From positions 1-32,690 of the IMG/VR virus record IMGVR_UViG_3300042465_005077: a DNA stretch of 32,690 nt. The stretch is one strand, 5' to 3'. The notes beneath the pieces are model-generated. The model worked only from the letters and a program-made list of their open reading frames with translations. It searched no databases and was not told the origin of the DNA. Positions 605 through 28,515 of the stretch are shown in pieces. Position numbers and translations under genes: made by a program. The DNA is from a virus. Position 1 is the first letter of the stretch. The number at the start of each line of letters is the position of its first letter.

Positions 605-609
605 TTAGG

Positions 610-5589: not shown

Positions 5590-5613
5590 ATACTATTGCG
5601 GATAAGGTAAGGT
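5590..5613 (-). promoter_or_regulatory. Start-proximal leader motif, tail tube-like gene
   Basis: On the minus strand the upstream stop TAA runs directly into CCTTACC (ACCTTACC at 5613-5606), followed by CGCAATAGTAT and the ATG. It is nearly identical to the leader of the scaffold-like gene (8770-8747), although the genes are unrelated. Confidence 0.5.
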
Positions 5614-6050
5614 TAGCCCTCGGGGTTCACGACCACCAGAATGTCGTAGACTAGGACCGATGCCCAGGAGCGTTCATTGACCCCCTCATCCTCGGACAGA
5701 GGGGTGATGTCGTAGCAGTGGGCATCGCCTTGGGCGGTGAACACGTCCTGCAGCTCTTCGAGGTCCTGCATGGCGCCGGCAATGGCGGCCATCCGGGCAC
5801 GGTGATCGGCTAGGGTCACGTCGTCGGCGGAGTCCAGCAGGGTGACGCGGACCGAGCAGGAGTAGTTCCCTAGGCCGTCAGGGAAGTCGTTAGGCAGGCG
5901 GGCGGAGTCGCAGAGCACGATGGCCTTAGGGAGCACGTTCGTGTCGGCGCTGTCGCCCGTGTAGACGTTGACCCCGGTCAGTTCGACCTGGGCGGTGAGG
6001 TAGGTAGCCACTGCGGCTTCCACGATATGGCGGGCGGATTTGGTTCCCAT
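5613..6050 (-). CDS. Tail terminator / neck protein (gpU-like, putative)
   Basis: The protein has 145 residues from the ATG at 6050, four bases after the previous stop. It begins MGTKSARHIVEAAVATYLTA and continues with alternating hydrophobic beta-strands (SCSVRVTLLDSADDVTLADH, ASVLVYDILVVV). The helix-then-beta plan and size match gpU/tail-completion proteins that cap the tail tube. The position between a gpZ-like gene and the tube gene is also that of gpU in lambda. No diagnostic residue is visible, so this is a fold-pattern and synteny call. Confidence 0.55.
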   Translation of the reverse strand: MGTKSARHIVEAAVATYLTAQVELTGVNVYTGDSADTNVLPKAIVLCDSARLPNDFPDGLGNYSCSVRVTLLDSADDVTLADHRARMAAIAGAMQDLEELQDVFTAQGDAHCYDITPLSEDEGVNERSWASVLVYDILVVVNPEG

Positions 6051-6054
6051 AGAG

Positions 6055-7017
6055 TTATTTACTTTTACGAGCGTTAGCCTGAGCCAACGTCTTCTCAAGC
6101 CTTGCGAGCACGGCGGCACGCATTTGTTTGACGCGGTTGCCGTAGACTAGGTTCTCGGTCCCGGCTTCTCCTGCCACGTTGTTGATGTTTCCGATCAGGT
6201 TCATCACGGTCATCGAGACGAAGCCCGGGCTACGGCTGGCGCTGAACACGCCCTGGGCTGAGCGCTTATTGGCGTCCACCCACGGAGCGTCATAGGCTCC
6301 GAAGTTACGCTCTACGCCCTTCTTGGTCACGGGCTTGGGGACCTGCGCTAGGACCGCAGCCCAGCCGGACTTGACCCGTCCGACCTTGGCCTGACGTTCA
6401 GCTATATAGGCTTGGAGTTGTTGGACTGAGCCGACCATATACTGCGGTCCGCCAACGGGCTGGTTGCGCTTCCAGCGTCCGTTCACGGCGTTCTTGTATT
6501 TGTCGTGGATGCCTCGCAGGTCGTTGGTCTGCCCTTCAATCGGCCTGATCTGCCCGAAGATGTTCGCCTTGTTCAGGTAGTTCTTGGCCTTCTTGAATGA
6601 ACGTTCCCAGCTCACGTCTTCCAGAATCTTACGCATGACCGGGGAGATGCCGCGTGCCTTGCCTGAATCGAAGTTGCCGTAGATTTCCATGAACGCCTGT
6701 CGGTCGTCGCCTCTGACGGAGTTGATGACGCGGCGCAGCAGGACGGGCATCCCCTTCTTGGGGCTGTCCGCAGGAATGAAGATGCGTTTGATGTCCTTGG
6801 CCGTCTTACCCATGCCGGCCTTGTGGGCGGCTGAGCTTAGGCCACGGCCACCGCCGGCAGGCATCGGAGGGGTGAAGGTCATGGCGTCGCGGCACATCAG
6901 CCTGATCTGCTCGCGGGTGACCATCTCCATATCGCCCTTTACCTCGGCGGCAAAGTGCCGCATAGCCGCGTTGAAGTCGGCTAGACTGGCTGGGTCGATG
7001 GCTCCCTTGCTGGCCAT
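6055..7017 (-). CDS. Head-tail connector / minor tail protein (gpZ position, putative)
   Basis: This protein of 320 residues is basic and largely helical, with many Lys and Arg throughout (for example FKKAKNYLNKAN, RVKQMRAAVLARLEK). The ATG overlaps the preceding stop (TAATG), indicating coupling to the gene before it. It contains no enzymatic motif. In gene order it corresponds to lambda gpZ or HK97-gp10-like neck proteins, though it is longer than many of these. Confidence 0.55.
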   Translation of the reverse strand: MASKGAIDPASLADFNAAMRHFAAEVKGDMEMVTREQIRLMCRDAMTFTPPMPAGGGRGLSSAAHKAGMGKTAKDIKRIFIPADSPKKGMPVLLRRVINSVRGDDRQAFMEIYGNFDSGKARGISPVMRKILEDVSWERSFKKAKNYLNKANIFGQIRPIEGQTNDLRGIHDKYKNAVNGRWKRNQPVGGPQYMVGSVQQLQAYIAERQAKVGRVKSGWAAVLAQVPKPVTKKGVERNFGAYDAPWVDANKRSAQGVFSASRSPGFVSMTVMNLIGNINNVAGEAGTENLVYGNRVKQMRAAVLARLEKTLAQANARKSK

Positions 7018-7391
7018 TACTGGTTGTCGTCGATGCAGGTCAGCTCGATGACGGCGCTGGCCTGCTTGTAGGACTGGCCCTTGACCCGGAGGACCTGCCC
7101 GTTGACCGTCAGTTTCTTGCCAGGGGCTAGGGAGGCCACAGGGACGCCCGAGGCGATTGTGGCTACCTGACCTCCAACCCGGCCATCAGAAGCCGTCCAA
7201 GGGGCCGTAGCGGCGGCAAAACGCACCGTCCACATCTTTTCCTCGGTGAAGCCCCCCGCGTCGAACTTGGGGGTGTTCATGGGTTGGGACAGGCCGACAA
7301 GGAACAGGTTGGCCCCGACCGTAGCCGGAACCCCGATGTCTGCCAGGATGGATTGGAAGTCAGAGTTGAAGGTGGAACCGTAGAGGGACAT
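7017..7391 (-). CDS. Head completion / head-tail joining protein (gpFII-like position)
   Basis: This protein of 124 residues starts MSLYGSTFNSDFQSILADIG and becomes beta-rich (KLTVNGQVLRVKGQSYKQAS), a typical plan for small joining proteins such as lambda gpFII. It is the first gene after the capsid and lies just downstream of the strong capsid terminator, so its expression probably depends on read-through or on its own start region. The leader before the ATG is C-rich (CCCTACCCACCCTC) with no purine box. The assignment is positional plus fold pattern. Confidence 0.55.
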   Translation of the reverse strand: MSLYGSTFNSDFQSILADIGVPATVGANLFLVGLSQPMNTPKFDAGGFTEEKMWTVRFAAATAPWTASDGRVGGQVATIASGVPVASLAPGKKLTVNGQVLRVKGQSYKQASAVIELTCIDDNQ

Positions 7392-7416
7392 GAGGGTGGG
7401 TAGGGATTTAGGGATA

Positions 7417-7442
7417 CAAAAAAGCCCCCATCACTGGGGGCT
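7417..7442 (-). terminator. Rho-independent terminator after the major capsid gene
   Basis: On the minus strand the stem AGCCCCC / GGGGGCT closes a short TGA-type loop and is followed directly by a run of six to seven T residues (7423-7417). It lies 20 bases after the capsid stop and before the start of the next structural gene. It could lower expression of the downstream neck and tail genes relative to capsid. Confidence 0.9.
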
Positions 7443-7462
7443 GTTTCAGGACTCAGCCCCGA

Positions 7463-8317
7463 TTAGGGGTTGTAGACCGAGGCGAGAGTGCCCGTGGTGA
7501 TCGCCTTGTTCGCACCGAACATCAGTTCCATGGAACCGACGAGGTTACGGGTGCTCTTGTCAGCCCAGACGTTGTAGTAGACCGAGATGCCGAGACCTTC
7601 GATCGGAACCACTTCGCGGACGAGGAAGTCGTTGCCGACAGCGTCGAGGTCCGGGGCGGCGGCGGCCATCGCCAGGGCTTCGCTGGAAACCGCGAAGCCG
7701 GCGAGTTTCGCTTCGGACGGGAAGAGGGAAGCGTAGAACACGCCACCATCGAAACCGTAAGCGCCAGCGGAGAGCGGGAGGGAGGTCGTGCTGGTCGGGA
7801 TGAGCTGGGAGTAGATGCCCGGGTTCACGATCAGGGTCTTGCGACCAGCCTTGGAGACGCCAGCCCAGAGAGCCTTGAGCTGAGCGGAGCCAGGGGTGAT
7901 AGCCGAATCAGCGGCGGTAACCGTGGCGGCGCCGAAGTTGGCGACGGTGATAGGAGCGGTAGCGGCGGCCCAGATGGAGTCGGCCAGCTTGTCCATGTTG
8001 ATCTTCAGAATCTTCTCGAGCTTGATGCCGTTCTGGATGTCGGCGTAGGAGAGACCGAAGGGCTGGTAGAGGTGGTTCAGCGAGACGGCGGTGGCGCCGA
8101 GGGTGCTGTCGCCGATGACGTTGAACGCGGTCGGGTTGGTCAGCGTGGTGCTGCCGGCGGTGGAGAGAGCCACCTGGACGACGTCCTTCGGGCGCTTCAC
8201 GTCAGCCGAGAAGTCGGAGGCGAAGTTACCGAGGGCCGCGAGGCGGTTCGAGAGGTTGGTGAGGCTGAGCTCGGCGACGGTATCGACGATCAGAGCGCTG
8301 TTGATGGTGTTAGGCAT
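7463..8317 (-). CDS. Major capsid protein
   Basis: This protein of 284 residues follows the protease and scaffold-like genes and is followed by a strong terminator, as expected for the most abundant virion protein. It starts MPNTINSALIVDTVAELSLT and has mixed alpha/beta Ala/Thr-rich sequence with segments resembling HK97-fold coat proteins: a spine-helix-like region around residues 98-118, the strand GRKTLIVNPGIYSQL, and late beta segments (LGISVYYNVWADK). There is no His-tag-like or enzymatic motif. The family is not certain, but position and size make the role likely. Confidence 0.8.
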   Translation of the reverse strand: MPNTINSALIVDTVAELSLTNLSNRLAALGNFASDFSADVKRPKDVVQVALSTAGSTTLTNPTAFNVIGDSTLGATAVSLNHLYQPFGLSYADIQNGIKLEKILKINMDKLADSIWAAATAPITVANFGAATVTAADSAITPGSAQLKALWAGVSKAGRKTLIVNPGIYSQLIPTSTTSLPLSAGAYGFDGGVFYASLFPSEAKLAGFAVSSEALAMAAAAPDLDAVGNDFLVREVVPIEGLGISVYYNVWADKSTRNLVGSMELMFGANKAITTGTLASVYNP

Positions 8318-8347
8318 GGGTAGCTAGTAGGTTGAAGTGAGGGGAAA

Positions 8348-8746
8348 TTATTTGGAGAAGAGGACGGCCTTGTGCTTCTTGAGGAAGGCGCGGCGCTCAG
8401 GGCCGGCAGGCATCGAGGCATACTGCTCGTGGATGGAACCGACGGCGGCGGCGACGACCGGGGCGGCGACAGGAGCCACGCCAGAAGAGGCAAGGATGTT
8501 CGCGGCTTCGACGGAGGCGGTGGCCTTGGAGGCTTCGAGCTCGACGATCTTGGCGTTGGCCTCGGCGAGGGCGGCTTCCAGTTCCTGAACCTTCTGGTCC
8601 TTGGCGGCGGCATCGACCTTAGCCTGGTCGAGTTCGGCAGAGACGTTGACCACGGAGGCTTCGACCGTCTTGCGGAGGTCGTCGCGTTCAGCGGTGAGGG
8701 AGACGACAGCGGCCTCGGCGGCCTTGAAGCGTTCTTCGATGGTCAT
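8348..8746 (-). CDS. Scaffold-like coiled-coil protein
   Basis: This protein of 132 residues is almost entirely predicted coiled coil in the first 80 residues (heptads in LTAERDDLRKTVEAS and VQELEAALAEANAKIVELE). An Ala/Val/Pro-rich linker follows, then a basic C-terminus (RRAFLKKHKAVLFSK). An acidic coiled coil with a basic tail directly between prohead protease and capsid is the classic plan of a scaffolding protein, whose C-terminus binds coat. It is not fused to the protease as lambda Nu3 is to gpC. It has an independent leader motif. Confidence 0.7.
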   Translation of the reverse strand: MTIEERFKAAEAAVVSLTAERDDLRKTVEASVVNVSAELDQAKVDAAAKDQKVQELEAALAEANAKIVELEASKATASVEAANILASSGVAPVAAPVVAAAVGSIHEQYASMPAGPERRAFLKKHKAVLFSK

Positions 8747-8770
8747 ATACTATTGCGTAGGGGGTAAGGT
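8747..8770 (-). promoter_or_regulatory. Start-proximal leader motif, scaffold-like gene
   Basis: Minus-strand ACCTTACC (8770-8763) follows directly on the protease stop codon TAA and precedes ACGCAATAGTAT and the ATG at 8746. It closely matches the leader at 5613-5590. Confidence 0.5.
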
Positions 8771-9573
8771 TAAGCGGCCTGCTCGAAAGCGGCGAGGGCC
8801 TCGGCGAAGGACGTGGCCAGACCCGTGACGAGGTTCTTGGCGGCGGCTTCCCGACCAGAGAACACTTGGCCTTCCATGTCTTCGCGGCTGGCGAGCGAGC
8901 GCTTGCGGAGGACCGTCTGCTTGAACTCTTCATGCATGGCCTCGATGGACTTCTGCTCGAGCTCGCGCATCTCGTCGGTGTAGCCTTCGCCGGCGATGTT
9001 CGGGGCCTTGTATTTGCCCGCACGGAACACCTCGACCTTGAGGCCCATGTTCTTGAACGCCTCGTCGTAGGACTCGTCCACGGCGATCACGCCGATGGAG
9101 CCTACCATAGCGGAGGGCGATGCGATGACGTAGTCGCTTTGACTTCCGGTATAATATGCGCCAGAGGCCATGAGCTTCTTGGCGTAGGACATGGTCGGCA
9201 GCGGGATGCTGGCAATCTTGTCGGCGAGTTCGGGCGTGCCGACGACCGTCCCACCAGGGGAATCAATCTCGAAGGCGATGCGCTGGACCGCAGGGTTGGC
9301 AAGGGCTTCGTCAATCTGCTCGCTGACCTCGGTCATGTCCATGGCCCCGGTCATCTTCTCGAACTTGGTCAGGCCGACACCGAGGAATCCCTGGAGCGGG
9401 ATGACCGCCGTTCCGCCCTGCGTGACGTAGGGCTTCGCGACAGGGTTGAAGAACATATCCAGCACGCTGTCCACGACGCCGTATTTCTCGGCATACTTCA
9501 TGTGGTTCGCGGCCTTGATAGGGTCGCAGAGAAGTGGCTCTCTTCCAGAGAGTCCGTTGATTAAGCATTTCAC
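8770..9573 (-). CDS. S49-family prohead protease (gpC-like, ClpP/SppA fold)
   Basis: This protein of 267 residues matures the prohead by cleaving scaffold and/or portal-associated proteins. The SppA-like core is clear: the strand-turn FEIDSPGGTV (about 101-110), the nucleophile region MASGAYY with Ser137, the conserved GSIGV (158-162), and a Lys in FRAGKYKAP (Lys187 or Lys189). The Ser-Lys spacing of about 50 residues is typical of the catalytic dyad in this family. The start is GTG at 9573, overlapping the portal stop by GTGA. It sits between portal and scaffold as in lambda, but here without an internal scaffold extension. Confidence 0.88.
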   Translation of the reverse strand: MKCLINGLSGREPLLCDPIKAANHMKYAEKYGVVDSVLDMFFNPVAKPYVTQGGTAVIPLQGFLGVGLTKFEKMTGAMDMTEVSEQIDEALANPAVQRIAFEIDSPGGTVVGTPELADKIASIPLPTMSYAKKLMASGAYYTGSQSDYVIASPSAMVGSIGVIAVDESYDEAFKNMGLKVEVFRAGKYKAPNIAGEGYTDEMRELEQKSIEAMHEEFKQTVLRKRSLASREDMEGQVFSGREAAAKNLVTGLATSFAEALAAFEQAA

Positions 9574-11290: not shown

Positions 11291-11315
11291 ATACTTATTG
11301 CGGGGCGGGTAAGGT
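11291..11315 (-). promoter_or_regulatory. Start-proximal leader motif, gpW-like gene
   Basis: Minus-strand ACCTTACC (11315-11308) is followed by CGCCCCGCAATAAGTAT and the ATG at 11290. The TerL stop (TAA, 11297-11295) is embedded in the GCAATAA part, so the motif is retained although it lies inside coding sequence. Confidence 0.5.
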
Positions 11316-13127
11316 TTGCGGCTCGTCCCGACCAAGCAGGCCCCAGCGCGCCGCGATCAGCATCCCGAGAAGCTCACAGTCGAAAGCGTGGTTGTCGCGG
11401 ACTCCCTTGCGTAGTCGCCACATGGCCTTGCCCGCCTCCTTGATGCGGACCTCCGAGTTCAGCTGCTCCACATACCCGGGGTCGGCATCCCGGGCAAAGG
11501 TGAACACCTTGCGCGAGCGCATCCCGTGGAACAAGTCCTTGCCTGACAGGTTGGACCAGACCACCAATGCCGTGGGGGTGCGGATGCCCGGGACGTGGAT
11601 GGCGGTCGGGGTGTTGTAGAACCGCCGGACGGTGTCCCCGGCCTTGGTCTTGACATTGAAATATTCCTGACCCGAGCCCTTCGAGCAATACCAGCCACGG
11701 GTGGCGCACTGCTTGTAGACCGTCTGGGTCGTGGTGTCTGCGCCGCCAGAGTCCACCATGACGAGCTGAGGGTGGACGCCGTGCTTGACCGCCAGGGCGT
11801 CGAGGCCGGACCAATCGCCTAGGCCGTCCGTGCTCAGGACCTTGCCGAAGTAGACCAGCCGGCTGTGGCCCGTTCGTGCCCACTGACGCACGACCACCCA
11901 GAAGTGGTCCGCCTGACAGTCGATTTGCAGGGTGATGAACTTGACCGAGCCTTCAGTCGCGTCGTCCTTATCCACGATCTGACCGCGTGGGCTGATGTAG
12001 CAGACCGCTTCCCAAGGGTCGGCCATGGCGTAGTCCGAGGACTCCGTCGAGACGACCATGCTCCCCGTGCCGTCATCACTCCAGGGCAGAGCCAGATACT
12101 GATTCTTAAATAGCATACGCGGGGTCTGGTCTCCGACCAAGTCTGCGACCTGCTTCGCTTTTATCATGTCCACGGCCAAGGACCCCCAGCTCGTAGACGC
12201 AAGAGCGTTGACGTGGAGCCCGACGTAGCCGGCCTTCTCCGCCTTGGTCGTGGCCTCGAACCCGGCGCCGCGCTCGACCTCGTTGCAGATCGTCCGCACC
12301 TCGTCGTTGTCCTCCATGCGGTGACGGCACTTCGAGCACTCGTAGGTCGTGCCCTGTTGCACGGCCTCAAGGTCCCAGCCGTCCACCATCTTGGCGCCTT
12401 CGGGGAATCTGATGTAGTCCCATAGCCAGGGCTGGCGGTGGTTGCACGACGGGCAGACGAACATCCATTCACGCTGGTCGGTCATCAGGTAGAACTTCCA
12501 GAACTCAGCGCCCTGTCCTTCGATGTCACCGGGCTGGCTCTCGTAGATCGCCTTCGACGCGAACGCCGCCGCCTTCATGCGGCTCATGCTCATGGCCAGC
12601 GCGCCGTTCGGCCACTGCCAGATTTCCGAGCCGAACACGTAGCGGACGTGCAACGACTGCAGGTGCTTCTCCGTCGAGGCCGAGCGGTTGTGGATCAGAG
12701 ACCCGTCCGCGAACCGCAACGTGCCCGACTTGTCGTTATCGTCCCCGGACATCTGGCTGCGGATGTCGGACACCTGGTCGAACAGCGGGCGCAGCTCGTT
12801 AAGCGTGAACGCCTTCGCCTTGTCCTGCGAGTCGAGGAAGATGGCCATCGACGCACGGCGGTTCGCCATCAGGTAAGTCGCGCAGAGTTTCAGCGTCAGC
12901 GTCTTCCCGCAGCCGATTGCCCAGGGCATAAACAGACGCGAGGTCGTCGGAGCGTTGAAAATGCGGACGGCCTCACCGATCCAAGGCCAACGCTTCGGGT
13001 TGTAGCCGCCATCGAAGACACCCGCCGGAATCTTCTTAACGTTCTCCTTCAGATACGCGACCGGGTCGCTCAAGGCCGACGGCCTGACAACGGCCAGCCC
13101 TTCTTCGAAGAGCTCGTCGGCGTTCAC
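11295..13127 (-). CDS. Terminase large subunit (GpA family)
   Basis: This protein of 610 residues is the ATP-driven DNA packaging motor and nuclease. The Walker A segment is AIGCGKT (about 70-76). The expected Walker B region reads YVFGSEIWQWPNG (about 163-174), with Ser-Glu in place of the usual Asp-Glu. A zinc-type insertion has Cys225/Cys228 (CPSC) and Cys264/Cys267 (CSKC), a GpA-family hallmark. The nuclease half has acidic motifs in LQIDCQADH, VMVDSGGADT and NHAFDCELL. The GTG start at 13127 overlaps the TerS stop by GTGA. GpA terminases are known from lambda and from many cos and non-cos phages, so the packaging type is not fixed by this. Confidence 0.93.
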   Translation of the reverse strand: MNADELFEEGLAVVRPSALSDPVAYLKENVKKIPAGVFDGGYNPKRWPWIGEAVRIFNAPTTSRLFMPWAIGCGKTLTLKLCATYLMANRRASMAIFLDSQDKAKAFTLNELRPLFDQVSDIRSQMSGDDNDKSGTLRFADGSLIHNRSASTEKHLQSLHVRYVFGSEIWQWPNGALAMSMSRMKAAAFASKAIYESQPGDIEGQGAEFWKFYLMTDQREWMFVCPSCNHRQPWLWDYIRFPEGAKMVDGWDLEAVQQGTTYECSKCRHRMEDNDEVRTICNEVERGAGFEATTKAEKAGYVGLHVNALASTSWGSLAVDMIKAKQVADLVGDQTPRMLFKNQYLALPWSDDGTGSMVVSTESSDYAMADPWEAVCYISPRGQIVDKDDATEGSVKFITLQIDCQADHFWVVVRQWARTGHSRLVYFGKVLSTDGLGDWSGLDALAVKHGVHPQLVMVDSGGADTTTQTVYKQCATRGWYCSKGSGQEYFNVKTKAGDTVRRFYNTPTAIHVPGIRTPTALVVWSNLSGKDLFHGMRSRKVFTFARDADPGYVEQLNSEVRIKEAGKAMWRLRKGVRDNHAFDCELLGMLIAARWGLLGRDEPQTLPAPQ

Positions 13128-13630
13128 GGCTTCGGTTCCTCCAACACTCCGGCCACCCGGGCAATCTTCTCGCGGGCTTCACGTGCCCACTCTGTCAACA
13201 CACCGATGGCTTTCACCGGGTCCTTGGGATTGCAGTTCTCACCGCACTCCGAGCCTAGCGCGTCCAGCCGTTCGACGATCAGGCCAGCCAGACGGAGCAT
13301 CGCCTCGCGCGCCTCGGTAGAGTCGATGTGCTGACGGGCGAACACCGAGCGCCGTTCCTGCTCTTCGCGCAACGCGACCGCTTGCTTCAGGCTCTGGTTG
13401 TAGGTCACTTGGTAGCGGCCAGCCTCAGCATCGCCGGCACGCAGCATCCGCTCATACTTCTCGCGGGCGAGCACGACCAGGCGCTCGTGCTTCTCGATCG
13501 TCTGCTCGAAGCTCGCGTCGGGGATTCCCTCAACGTCGAGCGGCGGCCTTTCCTTTTTGGGTCGCCCCGGCTTTCGAGCTGAACCGGCTGGTTCGGAATC
13601 CCCCGATTTTGGCTGGTTTTGAAAATCCAT
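13124..13630 (-). CDS. Terminase small subunit (putative)
   Basis: The protein has 168 residues from the ATG at 13630; an upstream GTG would add ten residues but is less likely. It starts MDFQNQPKSGDSEPAGSA and has a basic GRPKK AT-hook-like motif near residues 23-28. The rest is helical and charged (SLKQAVALREEQERRS), ending in a helix that could bind the large subunit. Position directly upstream of TerL with a GTGA overlap is the main evidence for the call. A run of T residues lies just upstream on the coding strand (GTTTTTTTTAAC), with no Shine-Dalgarno. Confidence 0.65.
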   Translation of the reverse strand: MDFQNQPKSGDSEPAGSARKPGRPKKERPPLDVEGIPDASFEQTIEKHERLVVLAREKYERMLRAGDAEAGRYQVTYNQSLKQAVALREEQERRSVFARQHIDSTEAREAMLRLAGLIVERLDALGSECGENCNPKDPVKAIGVLTEWAREAREKIARVAGVLEEPKP

Positions 13631-13717
13631 GTTAAAAAAAACGGCGGGGTGGCAAGCCACGCGATAAGCGGGGGGGGTGGTAAAAGATTCCTTTGAGGCC
13701 CTTTTCCCCTGTTTTCC

Positions 13718-14182
13718 TCATGTGCCGCGGACACGGCGCAAACCGCTCTCCATGCGTGTGCGGAAGCACGCTACTTGCTGCACCACCGAGACCCGGGAGC
13801 AGCCGAGTAGTTTTGAAATTTGTTTATGCGTCAGCTTGGAACCAATTCCTAGGCCGATGCGGACCACCTCTGCCTGTCCACGTAGCACCGGGCAGCGCTT
13901 GCCTCCGATCGTGTCGAGCACGACAGCCAGGACGGTGAGCACCTCGTCCCTGGTATAGGTCGCCGGCCTCACTGTCGCGTCAGCTCCTTCGGTCTGTCTG
14001 ATACGGAAGCAGGCGCGTGCCTCATCGAGCTCCATGACTGTGTCACCTGATCGGGGTAGCTCGCGGTAAGGTCGGAAGCCGTTGGCCCTAGCCTTGGCCT
14101 GAGCCTTAGGGGATAGGGAGTCGAAGTGAGCATCGACGGCGCGTTGATGCTCTAGCGGGATGTTGTCCTGAGTCTCGGCCAC
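13718..14182 (-). CDS. HTH DNA-binding regulator upstream of terminase (putative late regulator)
   Basis: This protein of 154 residues begins at a GTG at 14182. The C-terminal third contains a helix-turn-helix like sigma region 4 (LTHKQISKLLGCSRVSVVQQ, about residues 117-136). The N-terminal part is charged with no known domain. Position immediately before the small terminase is where late activators or antiterminators (ArpU-like or Q-like) are often found, so late transcription control is a reasonable guess. The control region upstream carries GTTTGCA repeats that could be its operator. A replication-initiator role is an alternative, since those repeats also resemble origin iterons. Confidence 0.6.
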   Translation of the reverse strand: MAETQDNIPLEHQRAVDAHFDSLSPKAQAKARANGFRPYRELPRSGDTVMELDEARACFRIRQTEGADATVRPATYTRDEVLTVLAVVLDTIGGKRCPVLRGQAEVVRIGLGIGSKLTHKQISKLLGCSRVSVVQQVACFRTRMESGLRRVRGT

Positions 14183-14220
14183 TTGCCTAGGTTGTAGGGC
14201 TCAAGGTGGCTTGAAGTGAA

Positions 14221-14226
14221 ACTATA
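14221..14226 (-). promoter_or_regulatory. Possible -10 box for HTH regulator gene
   Basis: Minus-strand TATAGT lies 39 bases upstream of the GTG start at 14182. The GTTTGCA repeats start about 15 bases further upstream, where a -35 region would lie, suggesting repression or activation through them. No good TTGACA box is seen. Confidence 0.3.
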
Positions 14227-14240
14227 ACCCGACAACCTGC

Positions 14241-14279
14241 GTTTGCATCTGTTTGCAGTCGTTTGCAGGACTTGCAAAC
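14241..14279. repeat. Phased GTTTGCA iteron cluster
   Basis: GTTTGCA occurs at 14241-14247, 14251-14257 and 14261-14267, spaced one helical turn apart, then as the inverted copy TGCAAAC at 14273-14279. Related copies lie at 14423-14429 and 14475-14481. A protein binding these would contact one face of the helix. Confidence 0.75.
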
Positions 14280-14494
14280 ACCTTAACCCATTGACCAGCA
14301 ACGGACTTGCGAACGACTACTACTACTACCTACAACTATATAGATAGATATATATAGAGAGAGAGAGAAGAAGGGGAGAGGGGAGGGGGTATCCTATAAA
14401 GGGGGCTATAGTGCGGGGAAGTTGCAAACACCGACTTGCAGACGTAAAGCCTTACCACTGCAGACGTTTAGCACGTTTGCAGAGTAGGCCGAAA

Positions 14495-14506
14495 CTGTTG
14501 CAACAG
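14495..14506. repeat. Perfect 12-base palindrome CTGTTGCAACAG
   Basis: This exact palindrome lies a few bases after the primase-helicase stop. Its core TTGCAA is shared with the iterons, so it may be a dimeric binding site of the same protein. Confidence 0.6.
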
Positions 14507-14510
14507 ACCG

Positions 14511-17147: not shown

Positions 17148-17169
17148 AAGGTGCGGGATGGCGTAAGGT
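17148..17169 (-). promoter_or_regulatory. Start-proximal leader motif, primase-helicase
   Basis: Minus-strand ACCTTACG (17169-17162) is followed by CCATCCCGCAC (ending 17151), then CTT and ATG. This leader links the early CCCGCAC type with the late ACCTTACC type in a single site. Confidence 0.5.
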
Positions 17170-17452
17170 GCGGCCCGTGGGCGGGTCAGGCAACCAGAAA
17201 AGAAAGACCCCCCGAGAGAAACCATGCCAGGGGCAGAGGGCCGGAGGGTCGCTCGGATGTGGTCCGGTCCAGAGGGCATCTTCCATTGCCGAGGATTGCT
17301 GATGATGGCTTATTGCCTCTTGCCTTTCGTCGTCATGAGCGACGCTGAGTGTCGATAGCCCATAGGCACTAAACACTTCTCACAGCAAAGAAGAACAGGG
17401 CTTACTTTTGCAGAGGCCCTATCCGTTATGCGTTTACTGTGCCAACCTTGCC
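17170..17452. other. Intergenic stretch without a confident gene
   Basis: This lies between the VRR-NUC stop and the primase-helicase leader. The minus strand carries a short open frame with a Cys-x-x-Cys-like cluster (CCEKC) and an ending TTKGKRQ, but it has no convincing start: only a GTG giving 19 residues. The extension of the primase frame up to 17279 lacks the leader and is not used. No clear promoter or terminator is seen. Confidence 0.4.
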
Positions 17453-19176: not shown

Positions 19177-19194
19177 GTGCGGGAATAGGGTGAG
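19177..19194 (-). promoter_or_regulatory. Start-proximal leader motif, SF2 helicase
   Basis: Minus-strand CTCACCCTATTCCCGCAC runs directly into the GTG start at 19176. The motif supports this non-ATG start. Confidence 0.5.
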
Positions 19195-19268: not shown

Positions 19269-19286
19269 ACCGAGCAATCCCGCACT
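19269..19286 (+). promoter_or_regulatory. Start-proximal leader motif, first plus-strand gene
   Basis: ACCGAGCAATCCCGCACT directly precedes the ATG at 19287. It is the plus-strand counterpart of the leaders seen on the other strand. Confidence 0.45.
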
Positions 19287-19400: not shown

Positions 19401-19404
19401 TCCC

Positions 19405-19707: not shown

Positions 19708-19710
19708 TCT

Positions 19711-19717
19711 CCCGCAC
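19711..19717 (+). promoter_or_regulatory. CCCGCAC leader before third plus-strand gene
   Basis: CCCGCAC abuts the ATG at 19718. The upstream stop TAA lies at 19705-19707, so this gene is not coupled and carries the leader instead. Confidence 0.45.
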
Positions 19718-22466: not shown

Positions 22467-22716
22467 GCACGAACTGACGGTCACCCATAAGGGTTGCGAG
22501 TATCAGGTCATCCTGGACGGCTCGGCCATCTACGTGGACGACTCCTTCGACCATGAGTTCGGGACCGAGGTTCGCGGCCACTGGGAACTCGACTGGGAAG
22601 AGACGGAAATCGTCTCGGTCATCGACACCGACGGCGAAGAGATTGACCCCTACGAGGTGGTCGGCCTGACCCGCGCAATCAGAGACGCATCCAATGACAT
22701 CGAAATCGAGGGCTAA
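22459..22716 (+). CDS. Acidic small hypothetical protein
   Basis: This protein of 85 residues begins at a GTG overlapping the previous stop by eight bases. It is strongly acidic and beta-rich (YQVILDGSAIYVDDSFDHEF, WELDWEETEIVSVIDT), in contrast to its basic neighbours. Small acidic, beta-rich early phage proteins are sometimes DNA mimics or inhibitors of host enzymes; this is a speculative possibility and no known family is recognised. Confidence 0.5.
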   Translation: MAEHELTVTHKGCEYQVILDGSAIYVDDSFDHEFGTEVRGHWELDWEETEIVSVIDTDGEEIDPYEVVGLTRAIRDASNDIEIEG

Positions 22717-23026
22717 CTACGGACTAGTCAAGGCCGCCGTGATCGCCACGGCCTCCCCGCAGCTGACGGTCGAGCAGGTGGCCACGCTTACCGGGCATAA
22801 CCTGCGCTCGGTCCGTTGCGCCATCAAGCACCTCGGCCTGCCGGCCTTACGCGAGCGCCGTCCCAAGGGGTCCATCAAGGACCTCGTCCTAGCCGGCCAT
22901 GACCAGGGGATGACCGTCCCGCAACTGGCCGAGACCAGCGGGGTTTCCCGTTATACCCTTTACGCTACCTACAGGCGTCTCGGCATTACCCCCTGCGTTG
23001 CCCGCCAAGGCCGTTCGACCCTATGA
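22694..23026 (+). CDS. Double helix-turn-helix protein (putative regulator)
   Basis: This protein of 110 residues overlaps the previous gene by 23 bases. It contains two HTH-like units, LTVEQVATLTGHNLRSVRCAI (about 24-44) and MTVPQLAETSGVSRYTLYATY (about 73-93), joined by a basic RERRPKGS linker, the plan of resolvase-like or tandem-HTH regulators. The next gene overlaps by ATGA. It may control the plus-strand operon or late genes; no nuclease or recombinase core is present. Confidence 0.6.
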   Translation: MTSKSRANYGLVKAAVIATASPQLTVEQVATLTGHNLRSVRCAIKHLGLPALRERRPKGSIKDLVLAGHDQGMTVPQLAETSGVSRYTLYATYRRLGITPCVARQGRSTL

Positions 23027-23496
23027 CCCTAGTCCTAGCCCTCTCCGCCGCCCTGCTGACCTCTGAGGCCATCCCAGAGCAGACCCTGCAGGCTGTCGAG
23101 CAGGTCGAGTCCTCGGGCCGTGGGGCGTCCACCCCTCGGGGCGACGGCGGCAAGGCCCTCGGCTGCCTTCAGTGGCACGCCGTAGCGTGGAAGGACTGCT
23201 CGGCCATCAGGCGCAAGGTGGGGCTGGCGGTCTATCCCTATGCCGACGCGGCTGTGCCGGCCAAGGCTCGGGACTACGCTCGCACCTGGCTGACGGTCCT
23301 GAAGGTCAGGCTCGCCGGCGAGATCGGGCGGCAACCTCACCCCGGGGAAATCTGGCTGGCTTGGAATCTAGGCTGGACGGGCTTCCGTCGCTACGGTTTC
23401 CAGTGGGCCGAGGTTCCCTCTGCCAAGTTCAACAAGGCGCGGCAGGTGAACACGCTGGCTTGGGGCTTGCCAAAACGCCCTGCCGTCGCAAGGTAA
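23023..23496 (+). CDS. Lysozyme/transglycosylase-like endolysin
   Basis: This protein of 157 residues has a short hydrophobic N-terminus (MTLVLALSAALLTSEA) that may be a signal or anchor. A lysozyme-fold signature follows: a catalytic Glu in VEQVESSGRG (Glu29), then GDGGKALGCLQWH, the SLT-type 'G-x-x-Q' region, and the helix PAKARDYARTWL. WLAWNLGWTGFRRYGF completes a typical substrate groove. It would cut peptidoglycan at the end of infection. It is the last gene of the plus operon, about 5 kb from the holin-like cassette, a split lysis layout. Confidence 0.75.
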   Translation: MTLVLALSAALLTSEAIPEQTLQAVEQVESSGRGASTPRGDGGKALGCLQWHAVAWKDCSAIRRKVGLAVYPYADAAVPAKARDYARTWLTVLKVRLAGEIGRQPHPGEIWLAWNLGWTGFRRYGFQWAEVPSAKFNKARQVNTLAWGLPKRPAVAR

Positions 23497-23556
23497 CAGG
23501 CGAGGCCCGGACAAAATCAATTGTGCGGGATCGCAACTGAGGGCAGTTCGGGCTTC

Positions 23557-23578
23557 GGGCCATCCGCAAGGGTGGCCC
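23557..23578. terminator. Hairpin terminator between convergent genes
   Basis: GGGCCATCC-GCAA-GGGTGGCCC forms a 9-pair stem (one T-G pair) with a GCAA tetraloop, followed on the plus strand by TTATGCTTTATA. It lies between the endolysin stop and the minus-strand gene stop at 23579, so it may serve both directions. Confidence 0.65.
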
Positions 23579-24073
23579 TTATGCTTTATACAAGCGGTCG
23601 AGGTCGGCCTTCAGGTAGTAGGCGTTCATGTGCAGGCCGATGATACCGCGAGGGGTCTTCCAATACTTCGGCTTCAGCCCTGCCCGGGCTACTCGGCCAC
23701 GCACGGCCACGTCCGAGACGTTCTTGCTGACCGCGTAATCGACCAGGCGCACCCAGCCCTTGGGGACTTTGTCGGAGCGGTGGGCGAACATCTGGGCGGC
23801 GGCCTCCTTGATGGACTTATACGGAGGGACCGGGCGGTAGACGTAGGCCATGTGGCACTGGCCTGTGCCGGACTTGAACTGATGGGGCTGGCGTTCGAGC
23901 AGGCCACGGCGCTGCAGGTCGAGCGCGCGGGAGGATGCGTTGCGCGTGTGGGCCATATCGAGCTCGACGCGGATCTGGTCCACGGTGAACCAGCCCTTGG
24001 GGCAGGGGTAGTCCTTGGGCTCGTTGCTCAGTTCCTTGAGCAGGCGCTGCACGATGGAGTTTGAGTCGGTCAT
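23579..24073 (-). CDS. Winged-helix-like DNA-binding protein (putative)
   Basis: The protein has 164 residues from the ATG at 24073, which overlaps the phosphoesterase stop by ATGA; an upstream ATG at 24088 adds five residues. The N-terminal ~70 residues look like a winged helix (WFTVDQIRVELDMAHTRNAS, then SSRALDLQRRGLLER). The C-terminal half has a second HTH-like block (VRLVDYAVSKNVSDVAVRGR) followed by a small beta-hairpin (PRGIIGLHMNAYYL). Function unknown; it ends the minus-strand block at the convergent terminator. Confidence 0.65.
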   Translation of the reverse strand: MTDSNSIVQRLLKELSNEPKDYPCPKGWFTVDQIRVELDMAHTRNASSRALDLQRRGLLERQPHQFKSGTGQCHMAYVYRPVPPYKSIKEAAAQMFAHRSDKVPKGWVRLVDYAVSKNVSDVAVRGRVARAGLKPKYWKTPRGIIGLHMNAYYLKADLDRLYKA

Positions 24074-24816
24074 ACGGATAAGCGCCAAGGCTGGCCGGAC
24101 ATCTCCAGCGGGTGGATGTAGAGACTAGGCTGGATGCCCGTGTCGCAATACTCGCCATACGCGATGGCCTGACCCCACGACAGGGTCTTGCGACGCCCCT
24201 TGGCGTAGTCGCTTGAGCCCCGCAGCTTGAGCGTGCCGACGTTGATGCCGATCGTGCGGCGGGAGTTACGGGCTAGGGCTATGCCAGGGGAATGGGTATG
24301 GCCGAAGAAGACCGCGTCCGCTTCGACATACATTTCCGCCATGTCCCGAGGCGCTGACTCGTTGTAAATCGTGCCGTGCGTGAACAGGCCCGTGCCGAGC
24401 ATATACTTCTGGAAGACCCCGGTGTAGGGGACGTGGTCGGCCTTCAGTTTCTGGACGGTCTGCTCGATGTCGTGCTTCAGGTATTGGCTCAGCTCGGCCA
24501 CGACCTCGTTCTTGGAACGGGTCAGCCGCCAGATGCGGTCCTCGTGGTTTCCGTTGATGACCACGTTGAACTCGCCGTCCTCAAGGAAGCGGACGCCCCC
24601 GGCGATGTCAGGCGCAAGGGGTTCGCCATGGCCGGCGCCGCCACCCATCAGGGCCTCGACGTCTACGAAGTCCCCGAGGTGGATGCGCTTCGCTCCTGGG
24701 CCTTTGCAGAAGTCGCCCATGAACTTGAGGACAGACTCCCGCGCCACCGGGTCGATGTGATGCCCATGAGAGCAGGACACCGCCGCGAACCGCTTCCACT
24801 TCCGGGTGATGTTCAT
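24070..24816 (-). CDS. Calcineurin-like metallophosphoesterase
   Basis: This protein of 248 residues has most of the metal-binding motifs of the calcineurin-like superfamily: SCSHGHH (about 14-20), HLGDFVD, GNHED, a lone His in FTHGTIYN and GHTH. The first motif, usually D-x-H, reads C-S-H, so the first metal ligand differs from canonical family members. Phage members include lambda NinI; substrates may be phosphodiesters or phosphoproteins. Its ATG overlaps the kinase stop by ATGA, placing it in the nucleotide/host-takeover cluster. Confidence 0.85.
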   Translation of the reverse strand: MNITRKWKRFAAVSCSHGHHIDPVARESVLKFMGDFCKGPGAKRIHLGDFVDVEALMGGGAGHGEPLAPDIAGGVRFLEDGEFNVVINGNHEDRIWRLTRSKNEVVAELSQYLKHDIEQTVQKLKADHVPYTGVFQKYMLGTGLFTHGTIYNESAPRDMAEMYVEADAVFFGHTHSPGIALARNSRRTIGINVGTLKLRGSSDYAKGRRKTLSWGQAIAYGEYCDTGIQPSLYIHPLEMSGQPWRLSV

Positions 24817-25433
24817 CGGTATAGGCTCATTGACTGGGTAAACTTACGGGCCCACTGACGGATCGCCTCGACGGAGTTATCCGGGAAGCAGACCTGCAGG
24901 GCGTTGCCCCTGCGGAAGCAGTCGTGCGCCGCCATCAGCCCGATGGACTCGGCCTCGGCGTTGTTGGCGGGCAGGTTGCCCTGGCGTTCGATGTAGATCG
25001 GGACGAAGGCCCAGCCGCGTTTGACGCAGAGGGCCTCGAGTTTCAGATACTCGTTCTCGTAGCGCATATCCGGCACGAGGATGACGGAGTGCTCGGAGCC
25101 TGAGTCCTTGCAGGTGATGTCGGCCCAGTTGTTGATGTGCTCGATGACCTTGTCCACCCAGACGTTCGGGTTCTGCGTGCGGCAGTATTCCCCGTAGGCA
25201 ACCAGGAGCGGACGGAGCGCGGCCTTCTTGGCGGTGTCCTCGGTGAAGGCGTCGATATTCACGCCCGCTTCGTCTAGGGAAATCTGGAGGGACTCCTTCA
25301 GCGCGTCGGCGAACTTCAGGACGATGCAGGAATACTCGGGCTCGTCCTGTTCGAGCAGCTCGAAGATGGAGTCGGCCAGGGAATCTTTGCCTGCCCGGGC
25401 GAATCCTGCGATGGGGACCAGTATGTGTTTCAT
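24813..25433 (-). CDS. Deoxynucleoside monophosphate kinase-like P-loop protein
   Basis: This protein of 206 residues begins with the strand-loop MKHILVPIAGFARAGKDSLAD, a P-loop of the G-x-x-x-x-G-K-D-S type found in phage dNMP kinases (T4 gp1-like). Later segments PNVWVDKVIEHIN and VPDMRYENEYLKLEA match the acceptor-binding and lid-proximal parts of that family. It would phosphorylate dNMPs to feed phage DNA synthesis. It overlaps both neighbours by ATGA. The exact substrate is not decided by sequence. Confidence 0.82.
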   Translation of the reverse strand: MKHILVPIAGFARAGKDSLADSIFELLEQDEPEYSCIVLKFADALKESLQISLDEAGVNIDAFTEDTAKKAALRPLLVAYGEYCRTQNPNVWVDKVIEHINNWADITCKDSGSEHSVILVPDMRYENEYLKLEALCVKRGWAFVPIYIERQGNLPANNAEAESIGLMAAHDCFRRGNALQVCFPDNSVEAIRQWARKFTQSMSLYR

Positions 25434-25684
25434 AGGGAAGTTCTGCGGTAGCCTTGGGACCAGAGCACGTCCGCGATCTTGCGCGAGATGCGGTCCACCT
25501 TCTTCTCGGGGGCTTTCCAGTCTCCGAGGTGGAGGGCCTCATGCACGGTCACGCGCAGGCGTTCGCGCTCCGTGATGATGTTCGGGTCGAGCTCGATGGT
25601 GTTGTCCTTCTTGCAAGCGAGCCCTGCGATGTCCCCGGGCAGGGGTCGGACGATGACCTTCGGGACCTTGGGTTTCTTTCCCAT
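25430..25684 (-). CDS. Small HEALH-motif protein (metalloprotease-like)
   Basis: The protein has 84 residues from the ATG at 25684. It holds the zinc-protease signature HEALH (about 48-52) after a beta-rich front (VIVRPLPGDIAGLACKKDN). Such short HExxH proteins, sometimes SprT-like or ImmA-like, occur in many phages; whether they are active proteases is unclear. No third zinc ligand is obvious because the protein ends soon after. It heads the ATGA-coupled set 25684-23579, just below a terminator. Confidence 0.7.
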   Translation of the reverse strand: MGKKPKVPKVIVRPLPGDIAGLACKKDNTIELDPNIITERERLRVTVHEALHLGDWKAPEKKVDRISRKIADVLWSQGYRRTSL

Positions 25685-25716
25685 GGGTGGATGTTGTCTC
25701 CCAGCATCTGCACCTA

Positions 25717-25754
25717 AGCAAACAATAAGCCCCGCCCCCTTTCGAGGGCAGGGC
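25717..25754 (-). terminator. Rho-independent terminator after RecT
   Basis: On the minus strand GCCCTGCCC pairs with GGGCGGGGC (one G-U pair) around a TCGAAAGG-type loop, followed by TTATTGTTT. It lies 27 bases after the recT stop and about 33 before the next start, so the next gene set probably needs its own promoter or read-through. Confidence 0.75.
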
Positions 25755-25780
25755 CGGCTACACGGCACTCCTGCGTCAGC

Positions 25781-26566
25781 CTAAATGTCGATGGGTTCGT
25801 CGCCGGCGGGGGCGGCCTCGGGCTCGGTGGCCTTGGCCTTCTTGACCAGGTCCTTCACGGCTTCGGCAGCGGGCTGAACCGGCTGGCCTTCGACCGTGCG
25901 CTGGCCATACTCGGCCTCGTTGTCCTTGCGGATGGCTTCCTGCACGTCACGCGGCAGGCGGGGGAGCCACTTGGCAAGGCGCTTAAAGGCGGTCTTCTTC
26001 CACATCTCCATCGGGTAGGTGGCCCAAGGGCCGGACGAGCCGGAGCGGCTGGCCTTGCGGATGGCCTCGACCTCGGCCTTGCTCATCTGGATCGCGGCGG
26101 TTTCCCCGTCCTTGAAGCGGACCATGGCGTAGACCGCGTAGGCTTCGCCCCGGTCCTTGGACAGGTCCACGACGTGCTCCTCGACCTTGCCCAGGTTGAA
26201 CCGATACTTGTCATTCTGGCAGACGATGTCGGCGTGTATGTGGGCGACTTCGCCCGAGCGCATGACGAGCGCAAGGATGCCCTTGTAGTCGAACTGCAGG
26301 GTGGCGTCGTTGCCGTAGGGGATGAGGTGGGCGTGGTGGCCGTCAGGCATCAGACCCCACTGGGCGGCCTGCAGGACCACGGAGGCCACGGACTCCTTAG
26401 TGCAGTCCCAGAGTTTGGGGTTCTTGTTGCAGGCGGTGATGACGCAGCGCATGAAGCGGCTGGCGTCGTCGGCGTTCGGGAGGGCCTTGGCGACCTGCTC
26501 CTGCAGTCCGGCAGAGCGGACGAGTTCGATGGTGTTCTTCGGGGGGAGTGCGGGTGTGTTGCTCAT
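25781..26566 (-). CDS. recT: RecT-family single-strand annealing protein
   Basis: This protein of 261 residues carries the RecT core: helix-rich N-terminus, SVASVVLQAAQWGLMPDG (a conserved 'gL.p' region), HLIPYGNDATLQFDYKGILALVMRSGEV (about 81-108), then DGETAAIQMSKAEVEAIR and WKKTAFKRLAKWLP in the C-terminal third. It anneals complementary single strands and would act with the exonuclease encoded just upstream. The C-terminal tail is Glu/Ala/Lys-rich and probably flexible, as in known RecT proteins. The leader is a variant, ACCCTTTCCCAC, abutting the ATG. Confidence 0.92.
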   Translation of the reverse strand: MSNTPALPPKNTIELVRSAGLQEQVAKALPNADDASRFMRCVITACNKNPKLWDCTKESVASVVLQAAQWGLMPDGHHAHLIPYGNDATLQFDYKGILALVMRSGEVAHIHADIVCQNDKYRFNLGKVEEHVVDLSKDRGEAYAVYAMVRFKDGETAAIQMSKAEVEAIRKASRSGSSGPWATYPMEMWKKTAFKRLAKWLPRLPRDVQEAIRKDNEAEYGQRTVEGQPVQPAAEAVKDLVKKAKATEPEAAPAGDEPIDI

Positions 26567-26580
26567 GTGGGAAAGGGTCA
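26567..26580 (-). promoter_or_regulatory. Variant start-proximal leader before recT
   Basis: Minus-strand TGACCCTTTCCCAC runs directly into the ATG at 26566. It differs from the CCCGCAC form by missing the GC pair. Weaker than the other sites. Confidence 0.3.
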
Positions 26581-26784
26581 GAGGGTGCGGGTGGCCTCGG
26601 CGATGTCTTCGCGGATGCGTTTTAGGAAGTCTTCCATCGGGCCGTCGAAGGTAAACTCGTAGCCGTTGGTCATTGTGACAATGGTAAACCCGCACTTCGG
26701 GTAGATGTGGGAAATGGACTCGGGGTTGAAGAAGGCATCCCATCCCCCGGCGGTTTTGTATCTGAGGAAGTAAGCGCAGGACAT
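26578..26784 (-). CDS. Small hypothetical protein between exonuclease and RecT
   Basis: This protein of 68 residues begins MSCAYFLRYKTAGGWDAFFN and is mixed beta then helical (PMEDFLKRIREDIAEATRTL). Its ATG lies four bases after the exonuclease stop. Genes placed between RecE-like and RecT proteins may modulate their activity, but no family is recognised and the role is unknown. Confidence 0.6.
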   Translation of the reverse strand: MSCAYFLRYKTAGGWDAFFNPESISHIYPKCGFTIVTMTNGYEFTFDGPMEDFLKRIREDIAEATRTL

Positions 26785-26788
26785 AGCT

Positions 26789-27577
26789 TCAGACGTTGAA
26801 CTTGGACAGGTCCACCTCGATGACGCCCGGGCCGGTCTTCTTTGGCCATGCGATGGGGTCAGCGCCGTGGGTCTTGATGTAGCGATCCATCAGGTCGAGG
26901 CCGGCGCGGTAACGCTTTCGGCCAATCTCGATGTCGGCCTCGGTCATCACGAACACCTGGACGAAGATTTCGGGGGCGTCCTTGCCCTCGATGGCGATGA
27001 AGGCAAAGCCACGCGGGCGGCGGCTGGTCACGGCCTCGATGCCGTCGATATACAGCGCGCTCTGGCGGTCATAGCCATAGTCCCAGACTGATCGCCTGAA
27101 GGCATAGTGCTCCACGCTGGCGGTGGTCTTGACGTCCACGAGCAGGCCATCGTCGCGGTAGCGGTCAGGTCGGCAGCGCATCGGGATGCCGGTGACGGAG
27201 TCCTTCCAGAAGTAGGAAGACTCGTTGACCCCTTCGCCGGAGAGCAGGGCGGCGGCTTCATCGTCCTGCTGGACGGCTTCGGCGATGGCGCTCAGCTGAG
27301 TGAACTCATCGTGGCTCACGATCTCCTTGCCCTCGTTAGCCAGGAGGAACTCTTCCTCGCGGGCCTTGGCGCCTTTGCCCTTGTCGAGGCCCTCGGGCAT
27401 CACGGCCCATTCTTCGCCGATGAGCTGAGGCTCGAGGATGATAGTGTGGACAAGCGAACCCCAGCGGAGGGAAGGGGTCTTCTTGCGGGGCGTGTTCATC
27501 AGACGCGGGGACTCAAGGAAGCGGGAGAGCTTCGAGTTCGAGACCGCCGGGCTGGCGTGGTAGTCTTTGTTATTCAT
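26789..27577 (-). CDS. RecE-like PD-(D/E)XK exonuclease
   Basis: The protein has 262 residues from the ATG at 27577; a longer upstream frame overlaps the ligase. The pattern of phage exodeoxyribonuclease VIII/DUF3799 proteins is clear: N-terminal MNNKDYHASPAVSNSKLSRF, GSLVH (40-44), then the catalytic core RPDRYRDDGLLVDVKTT with Asp138, Asp148 and Lys150, and a Gln-containing helix YDRQSALY. It would digest one strand of duplex ends to expose single strands for RecT. CCCGCAC abuts the ATG. It forms a recombination module with the RecT encoded downstream. Confidence 0.87.
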   Translation of the reverse strand: MNNKDYHASPAVSNSKLSRFLESPRLMNTPRKKTPSLRWGSLVHTIILEPQLIGEEWAVMPEGLDKGKGAKAREEEFLLANEGKEIVSHDEFTQLSAIAEAVQQDDEAAALLSGEGVNESSYFWKDSVTGIPMRCRPDRYRDDGLLVDVKTTASVEHYAFRRSVWDYGYDRQSALYIDGIEAVTSRRPRGFAFIAIEGKDAPEIFVQVFVMTEADIEIGRKRYRAGLDLMDRYIKTHGADPIAWPKKTGPGVIEVDLSKFNV

Positions 27578-27597
27578 GTGCGGGGGGAATTGGTAAT
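27578..27597 (-). promoter_or_regulatory. Start-proximal leader motif, exonuclease
   Basis: Minus-strand ATTACCAATTCCCCCCGCAC directly precedes ATG. The first element is diverged (ATTACC); the second is complete. Confidence 0.4.
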
Positions 27598-27605
27598 ACG
27601 TTGTT

Positions 27606-28493
27606 TTACTTGTCGCCACGGATGCGGGGGTGACGGAGGGAGCCATCGGGCGTCTTGCTCTGGAAGGTGACCTCAAGGTAGGAACCGATGACGGTGTCGC
27701 GGTTCGCCCAGATCATGGCGCGCTGCTCGTCGCTGAAGCCACCGCCGACACGGACGAGGCGTCCGTTGTTCTCGACGACGACGTGGCCCATCGTGCCAGA
27801 CAGTCGGCCTTCGCCTTCATGGACGGAGACCACCGGGCAGTCCTCGGCGTCCACGGCCTTGACCTTCAACCAGGCGTTGGAGCGCTTGCCCTGCGAGTAG
27901 GGAGCGTCGAGGTCCTTGACCATAGCACCCTCGAAGCCCTGCGAGACGAAGCGACGGAACGCATCGTTAGGGGAGATGCCGACGAAGGACTCGACCAGAC
28001 GGACGGAGTCGGTGAACTCGAACTTGGCCATCTGTGCGCGGCGCTCGCGGTAAGTGCCGATGTCGTCGGGAAGGTCGAGCAGCCAGAGGAAAGCGTCCTT
28101 GGCGGGCTCGCTGGAGCGGATGTCGCCGACCGCGTCGTAGAAGTCAGCGCCGGAGACGGCTTCGCAGTCGAAGGTAAAGACGCCGTGCTTGCTGGCAGTG
28201 TCAGCGAACCACGCGCCGAGGTGCTCGATGGACGGAAGCGGGTTGCCGTTGCGGGTCTTCATGGCCACGGCGAACGTCTGGCGGCAGACTTCCACGATCA
28301 CGCGGACGCCGTCAATCTTCGGCTCGACCGCGTAGGACTCGGGGAGGATGCCTTTGTAGGGCTTGGCCAGCATCGCCGGGGAAAGAGGGGCGGCGGCAGG
28401 CTTGCGTGCGCCGACACGGAAGTGCGGCTGGCTTTCAATCATGTTGAAGATGAAAGCGTAGAGGTCGGCGTTAGGGTCGGAGGATGAGCTCAT
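27606..28493 (-). CDS. ATP-dependent DNA ligase (minimal type)
   Basis: The protein has 295 residues from the ATG at 28493; the upstream extension lacks the leader. Nucleotidyltransferase motifs are present in order: motif I EPKIDGVR with the adenylated Lys59, motif III FTFDCEAVSG, motif IV FEGAMVKD, and motif V AWLKVKA. A short OB-like C-terminal domain follows (VVSVHEGEGRLSGTMGH). There is no N-terminal DNA-binding domain, so it is a compact viral-type ligase. It would seal nicks in phage replication and recombination and heads the ligase-exonuclease-RecT operon. Confidence 0.92.
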   Translation of the reverse strand: MSSSSDPNADLYAFIFNMIESQPHFRVGARKPAAAPLSPAMLAKPYKGILPESYAVEPKIDGVRVIVEVCRQTFAVAMKTRNGNPLPSIEHLGAWFADTASKHGVFTFDCEAVSGADFYDAVGDIRSSEPAKDAFLWLLDLPDDIGTYRERRAQMAKFEFTDSVRLVESFVGISPNDAFRRFVSQGFEGAMVKDLDAPYSQGKRSNAWLKVKAVDAEDCPVVSVHEGEGRLSGTMGHVVVENNGRLVRVGGGFSDEQRAMIWANRDTVIGSYLEVTFQSKTPDGSLRHPRIRGDK

Positions 28494-28515
28494 GTTGTGC
28501 GGGATAGGCAAAGGT
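28494..28515 (-). promoter_or_regulatory. Start-proximal leader motif, DNA ligase
   Basis: Minus-strand ACCTTTGCC (28515-28507) then TATCCCGCAC and AAC before the ATG. Both elements and their spacing match the primase-helicase leader. Confidence 0.5.

Follow-up and report, generated by a model that had tools for sequence, protein, structure and literature searches.

T4 gp55, T5 D5, P2 Ogr, and Mu C are phage late activators or late sigma factors. In their scheme, a phage protein made before the virion proteins directs the host polymerase to a few late promoters. A different late system is found in phage AR9, where the promoters read AACA-6N-TA/G with the transcription start site at the last base, the phage has its own multisubunit RNA polymerases, and the leaders are 26-491 nt long (PMC5312081). 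In Deinococcus-Thermus, a -10 motif adjacent to ORFs yields leaderless mRNA (PMC12340547). Verrucomicrobia are listed among the bacteria in which Shine-Dalgarno (SD) boxes are scarce (PMC10783764). Very little is known about gene control in Verrucomicrobiota phages.

We analyzed a 32,690-base virus record (the window) with 62% GC from a tailed freshwater phage whose host is probably in the Verrucomicrobiota. Its late genes carry an element that, like the late-promoter motif of AR9, is short and bipartite, has a 6-nt gap, and is specific to late genes. Unlike the AR9 promoters, the element abuts the ATG, and no RNA polymerase was recognized among the proteins searched. As a putative promoter element that adjoins the start codon of genes with no ribosome-binding site, it also resembles the Deinococcus-Thermus motif. 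That motif, however, is the host -10 region, whereas the present element is phage-specific and bipartite with an upstream box that varies by lineage. Each half of the late-element design therefore exists elsewhere.

Sequences and relatives

Portal, protease, TerL, primase, helicase, RecT, exonuclease, and ligase genes are recognized in the window. Gene starts were predicted by simple rules, and the names gpW-like, scaffold-like, tube-like, and distal tail come partly from position and an earlier note on this DNA. No RNA families or tRNAs were found in the window, and INPHARED held no near-identical phage for window bases 1-24000. About 150 loci of relatives were collected by searches with TerL, primase, RecT, and one late protein. 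All are IMG/VR contigs, often incomplete and closely related, with many >85% identical in TerL.

A bipartite element at late gene starts

Four late genes of the window are preceded by the element AACCTTACC-N6-RCAATA, which ends 4-7 nt 5' of the ATG (Table 1). With its flank, the element reads [AT]A-ACCTTACC-N6-RCAATA, where box 1 is ACCTTACC or ACCCTACC and box 2 is RCAATA. At the gpW-like gene, it overlaps the end of the TerL gene, stop codon included, and the intergenic stretch at late sites is sometimes only as long as the element. A position weight matrix scored the four late sites at 28-34 bits, and no other position in the window exceeded 7.4 bits. When the complete rule was applied (up to one mismatch in box 1, then N6, RCAATA, and an ATG within 3-8 nt), it gave four matches in the window and none in 300 dinucleotide-preserving shuffles. 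In this genome, the motif is thus confined to the starts of several late transcription units. The uncoupled starts at 8317 (the major capsid protein, MCP), 7391, and 3763 carry neither this element nor the early element described below, and most uncoupled phage genes are without the late motif.

Table 1. Positions of the elements and candidate regulators in the window
Feature	Positions	Strand	Detail
Late element, gpW-like gene	11291..11317	-	AA-ACCTTACC (11308-11315), N6, GCAATA (11296-11301), AGTAT, ATG 11290
Late element, scaffold-like gene	8747..8772	-	TA-ACCTTACC (8763-8770), N6, GCAATA (8751-8756), GTAT, ATG 8746
Late element, tube-like gene	5590..5615	-	TA-ACCTTACC (5606-5613), N6, GCAATA (5594-5599), GTAT, ATG 5589
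Late element, distal-tail gene	578..606	-	AA-ACCCTACC (597-604), N6, ACAATA (585-590), AGTAGCC, ATG 577
Intrinsic-terminator-like hairpin and T run	7423..7442	-	3' of major capsid gene
154-aa helix-turn-helix (HTH) protein, candidate late factor	13718..14182	-	C-terminal HTH, residues ~114-146
110-aa D5-like regulator, alternative candidate	22694..23026	+	phrog_323, E 2e-5
Early element CCCGCAC, helicase	19177..19183	-	GTG 19176
Early element CCCGCAC, primase	17151..17157	-	ATG 17147
Early element CCCGCAC, ligase	28497..28503	-	ATG 28493
Early element CCCGCAC, exonuclease	27578..27584	-	ATG 27577
Early element CCCGCAC	19279..19285	+	ATG 19287
Early element CCCGCAC	19711..19717	+	ATG 19718

None of the four late sites has a TTGACA-like/TATAAT-like pair at 16-18 nt spacing, and no separate promoter, in the form of a TTGAC-like box or TANNNT at the usual spacing, was seen at them. 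They also lack a purine-rich complement to the 16S tail 4-15 nt before the start, the late element being C/A/T-rich. The scaffold-MCP unit has the element at its head and a terminator-like hairpin at its end, and there is no site before the capsid gene itself. This layout fits transcription better than translation. An RNA hairpin between the boxes, drawn by eye, was rejected because the pairing is lost where box 2 goes from AGGTAT to AGTAT.

The late element is conserved in >70 related phage contigs, and all four late sites are present in 21 of them. At orthologous starts, it occurs throughout with its boxes 6 nt apart and a variable N6, and the gap from RCAATA to the ATG is usually 4-8 nt. 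Across the ~150 loci, 82 distinct contexts had the boxes exactly 6 nt apart, nine had them 1 nt apart, and any other spacing accounted for two at most; in the window, the 1-nt case comes from the tandem ACCTTATC at the tube site. The element is restricted to late virion gene starts and, in relatives, lies only beside an ATG. An independent motif scan of IMG/VR gave, among the matches listed, 105 in loci of the family, each followed by an ATG 3-8 nt later. Another 39 fell in unrelated contigs, where an ATG stood at scattered distances or was absent; these represent the chance background. No match fell in host genes, as both exact matches in an Opitutia metagenome-assembled genome (MAG) are on its phage contig, and the other host DNA examined had none.

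The earlier note had described a single recurring two-part leader at these four starts and at primase, ligase, helicase, exonuclease, 19269, and 19711. The four late starts do share such a leader, with strong matrix scores, enrichment over shuffled sequence, and conservation at orthologous starts. The remaining sites carry a second motif.

Box 1 changes together within a genome

Box 1 differs between lineages at all sites of a genome together, giving ACCTTACC, ACCTTCCC, ACCCGAAC, CCTAAAC, and CAAC types. One clade has ACCCGAAC at gpW, scaffold, and tube and ACCCGAAA at distal tail, and L138 has ACCTTCCC at both visible sites. G012 (TerL 67%) has CCTAAAC before gpW and tube; its distal-tail site is the weaker CATATAC. 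Box 2 and the 6-nt spacing are kept in all three. Only in the most distant clade does box 2 change as well: G003 (TerL ~49%) has CAAC-N7-CTAAA at three late starts, where the geometry is the same with both boxes altered. A concerted change of box 1 at every site is typical of sites that track a factor acting in trans.

A candidate late factor

The late block opens with the gene for the 154-aa HTH protein, and both G003 and G012 have a homologue at the corresponding position. When the phages compared differ in box 1, the HTH is 26-50% identical (mean 37%), compared to 52-91% (mean 65%) where box 1 is shared. Outside the HTH, identity is similar in the two groups (73% and 79%, respectively). These HTH/box 1 pairs are non-independent: within the family, they represent essentially one transition, from clade A (ACCTTACC) to clade C (ACCCGAAC), to which the distant G003 and G012 are added. 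The other candidate, the D5-like protein, was rejected as the late factor because its HTHs show no contrast between box 1 types. Next to the D5-like gene, a 157-aa protein of unassigned family (23023-23496, plus strand) is conserved in 33 loci, including L116 (78%) and L118 (35%).

A structure model of the 154-aa protein was obtained with moderate confidence (pLDDT 82, pTM 0.48). Foldseek gave no significant match in the PDB (best E 0.44), with a list dominated by bacterial sigma factors, and all Pfam HTH matches were below threshold. Sigma70_r4 appeared in four of 16 members, with a best E of 0.033, below the cut-off, so that neither sequence nor structure gave a significant match to region 2 or region 4 of sigma-70. 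The protein could be either an activator or sigma-like. In the proposed role it would act as gp55, D5, Ogr, and Mu C do, though it has no significant match to any of them. No phage single-subunit RNA polymerase was named in PHROG searches of the proteins examined.

In L041, L043, L046, and L088, the leader of the HTH gene itself contains ACCTTACC-N6-CCCATA, which suggests autoregulation of the gene in this subclade. In the window, the region upstream of the HTH gene (14183-14500, minus strand) contains GTTTGCA/TGCAAAC iterons, a CT/TA-rich tract, and a box, GGGTTATAGTTTCACTT, that is highly conserved; the region is a possible origin, packaging site, or regulatory region. The iterons were rejected as the target of the HTH, as they are unchanged in the ACCCGAAC clade and changed (GTATGCA/TGCATTC) in L092, where the HTH and box 1 are not. 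Directly before TerL (13124-13660, minus strand), there is a very weak terminase-small-subunit match (phrog_57, E 0.16). Therefore, the upstream HTH gene is probably not TerS.

Late starts in P8625 and the host lineage

The closest cultured phage by TerL is P8625 (NC_029047, L152), from a Puniceicoccales strain. By distances largely counted by eye, a TTGACA-like box ends exactly 30 nt before the start of gp08, gp13, gp15, gp22, gp23, and gp31, and a TANNNN hexamer ends 7 nt before the ATG of gp08, gp13 (ATG 9656), gp15, gp22, and gp23. Judging from their sequence, these late boxes are predicted promoters with the start point at the start codon. P8625 resembles the present phage in its late gene order and in having promoter-like boxes fixed directly before late start codons; with only 22% TerL identity, the comparison of late starts is mainly positional, and gp15 is maybe not the tube. 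It differs in that its boxes are canonical TTGACA-N17-TANNNN with a GTATCC/GGATAC dyad, not ACCTTACC-N6-RCAATA. The dyad, GTATCC-N-GGATAC, overlaps the late promoters at 5426, 9634, 10750, 15573, and 17515 and is possibly an operator. It shifts by a few bases at gp23, where the distance from -35 to ATG stays 30. No clear peak for TTGACA-N30-ATG was seen in G004, G005, and other phages with 26% TerL identity.

One relative sits on a contig of the Opitutia MAG (G001), and a second, L154, is on an Aurantimicrobium MAG contig, so the MAG evidence for the host is weak on its own. The host lineage is probably Opitutae. Gene starts in the Opitutia MAG are C-rich at positions -1 and -2, and SD-like words occur at background level (8.4% vs 10.1% in control positions). 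Among 465 starts of this MAG, a TTG-N16..18-TANNNT pair whose -10 ends 4-12 nt ahead of the ATG was found 15 times, compared to 3.2 in shuffled sequence. Due to this excess, short-leader promoters fit the host lineage, and mRNAs with a short leader or none may be common in Opitutae.

Explanations for the late element

With roughly even confidence, we read the bipartite element as a phage-specific late promoter of leaderless or nearly leaderless mRNA, in which box 1 is read by a phage factor. Box 1, as ACCTTACC or its lineage variants, would be the target of a DNA-binding factor made by the phage, most probably the 154-aa HTH protein. Box 2, RCAATA with the AT-rich stretch to the ATG, would be where the host RNA polymerase opens the DNA. 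Transcription would begin at the ATG or a few bases away, as inferred from the 4-8 nt between box 2 and the ATG and from the geometry in P8625. The gpW-portal-protease, scaffold-capsid, tube, and distal-tail units would then give leaderless or near-leaderless late messages, which would suit a host lineage that makes little use of SD boxes.

Several observations argue for the promoter. The 6-nt spacing between the boxes is rigid next to a variable N6 and a 4-8 nt gap to the ATG, and the HTH of the 154-aa protein co-varies with box 1 while the D5-like protein does not. That the iterons do not track the HTH also speaks for a match between this protein and box 1. The site-like sequence in the HTH-gene leader of some relatives and the P8625 promoter-like boxes at a fixed distance from late ATGs point the same way. 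Against the promoter are the missing -35, a box 2 that makes a poor -10, and a 6-nt gap unlike that of sigma-70 promoters. The constant closeness to the ATG is equally expected of a translation signal, the HTH correlation comes from few independent transitions, and the HTH protein has no significant Foldseek or Pfam match.

If the promoter reading is right, a late regulon is now defined by sequence, together with its likely regulator, in a freshwater phage family that is uncultivated. This would also provide a natural series of matched protein-DNA specificity changes, covering four or more types of box 1, most of them paired with an HTH version. Together with the host data, it suggests that Opitutae and their phages commonly transcribe genes with short leaders or none, which would account for the lack of ribosome-binding sites at gene starts.

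Another possible explanation, which we consider unlikely, is a non-SD translation signal acting in the mRNA, where a phage RNA-binding protein or a modified ribosome recognizes ACCUUACC-N6-RCAAUA and loads at the adjacent AUG. An element that always ends 3-8 nt before the start codon, can fill the whole intergenic stretch, and would operate in a host lineage with missing SD boxes is consistent with such a signal. However, the spacing is fixed between the boxes and variable to the AUG, the co-varying protein is of the HTH type, which normally binds DNA, and the capsid gene, presumably the most translated, is without the element that the preceding scaffold gene has. It is rather improbable that the element is a phage-made replacement for the ribosome-binding site, read in the mRNA by a phage factor in a host lineage without SD. 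The earlier note had taken the leader as a replacement for the SD box, and this headline is unsupported: SD boxes are at background in the probable host lineage, so a missing box needs no phage-specific replacement, and most uncoupled genes are without the motif. A promoter and a protein-binding site were among the other options it offered, and the promoter is now the best reading.

It is quite doubtful that the element, instead of being the promoter, is an operator used by the HTH protein to repress late transcription or set its timing, or a site of RNA processing or pausing. Co-variation with the HTH protein would fit an autoregulated operator equally well, as would the site-like sequence before the HTH gene in some relatives, but no separate promoter is visible at the four late sites, and box 2 has stayed conserved in lineages with an altered box 1. 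Functionless similarity inherited among close relatives, suggested by the many contigs with >85% TerL identity, is hardly credible given that one genome has the element at four unrelated genes, that N6 drifts while the boxes stay, that box 1 changes in concert at non-homologous sites, and that the geometry persists at 67% and ~49% TerL identity.

A separate element at early gene starts

Early genes carry TCCCGCAC directly before the ATG or GTG, a separate conserved element that is distinct from the late one. In 11 sampled phage loci, 63 of 74 occurrences lie within 8 nt of an ATG or GTG, compared to 3 of 14 in host DNA. The element is conserved in relatives at helicase, 19287, 19718, exonuclease, ligase, and primase, and none was seen at the starts of G003 and G012. 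One motif for early and late blocks alike, as first proposed, has thus become two, with the late element only at late starts. Primase (ACCTTACG) and ligase (ACCTTTGC), which had been counted with the late leaders, have no late element and share only TCCCGCAC before the start. The GTG start proposed for the helicase is supported, being conserved in all 12 distinct leaders of 27 loci. The early element could be a real translation-start element. It is present in operon-internal and promoter-proximal positions alike. In several relatives, the ligase and primase leaders also have TTGACG or TTGCCT ~30-32 nt before CCCGCAC (window 28504-28541 and 17158-17200, minus strand), which would place the transcription start at CCCGCAC.
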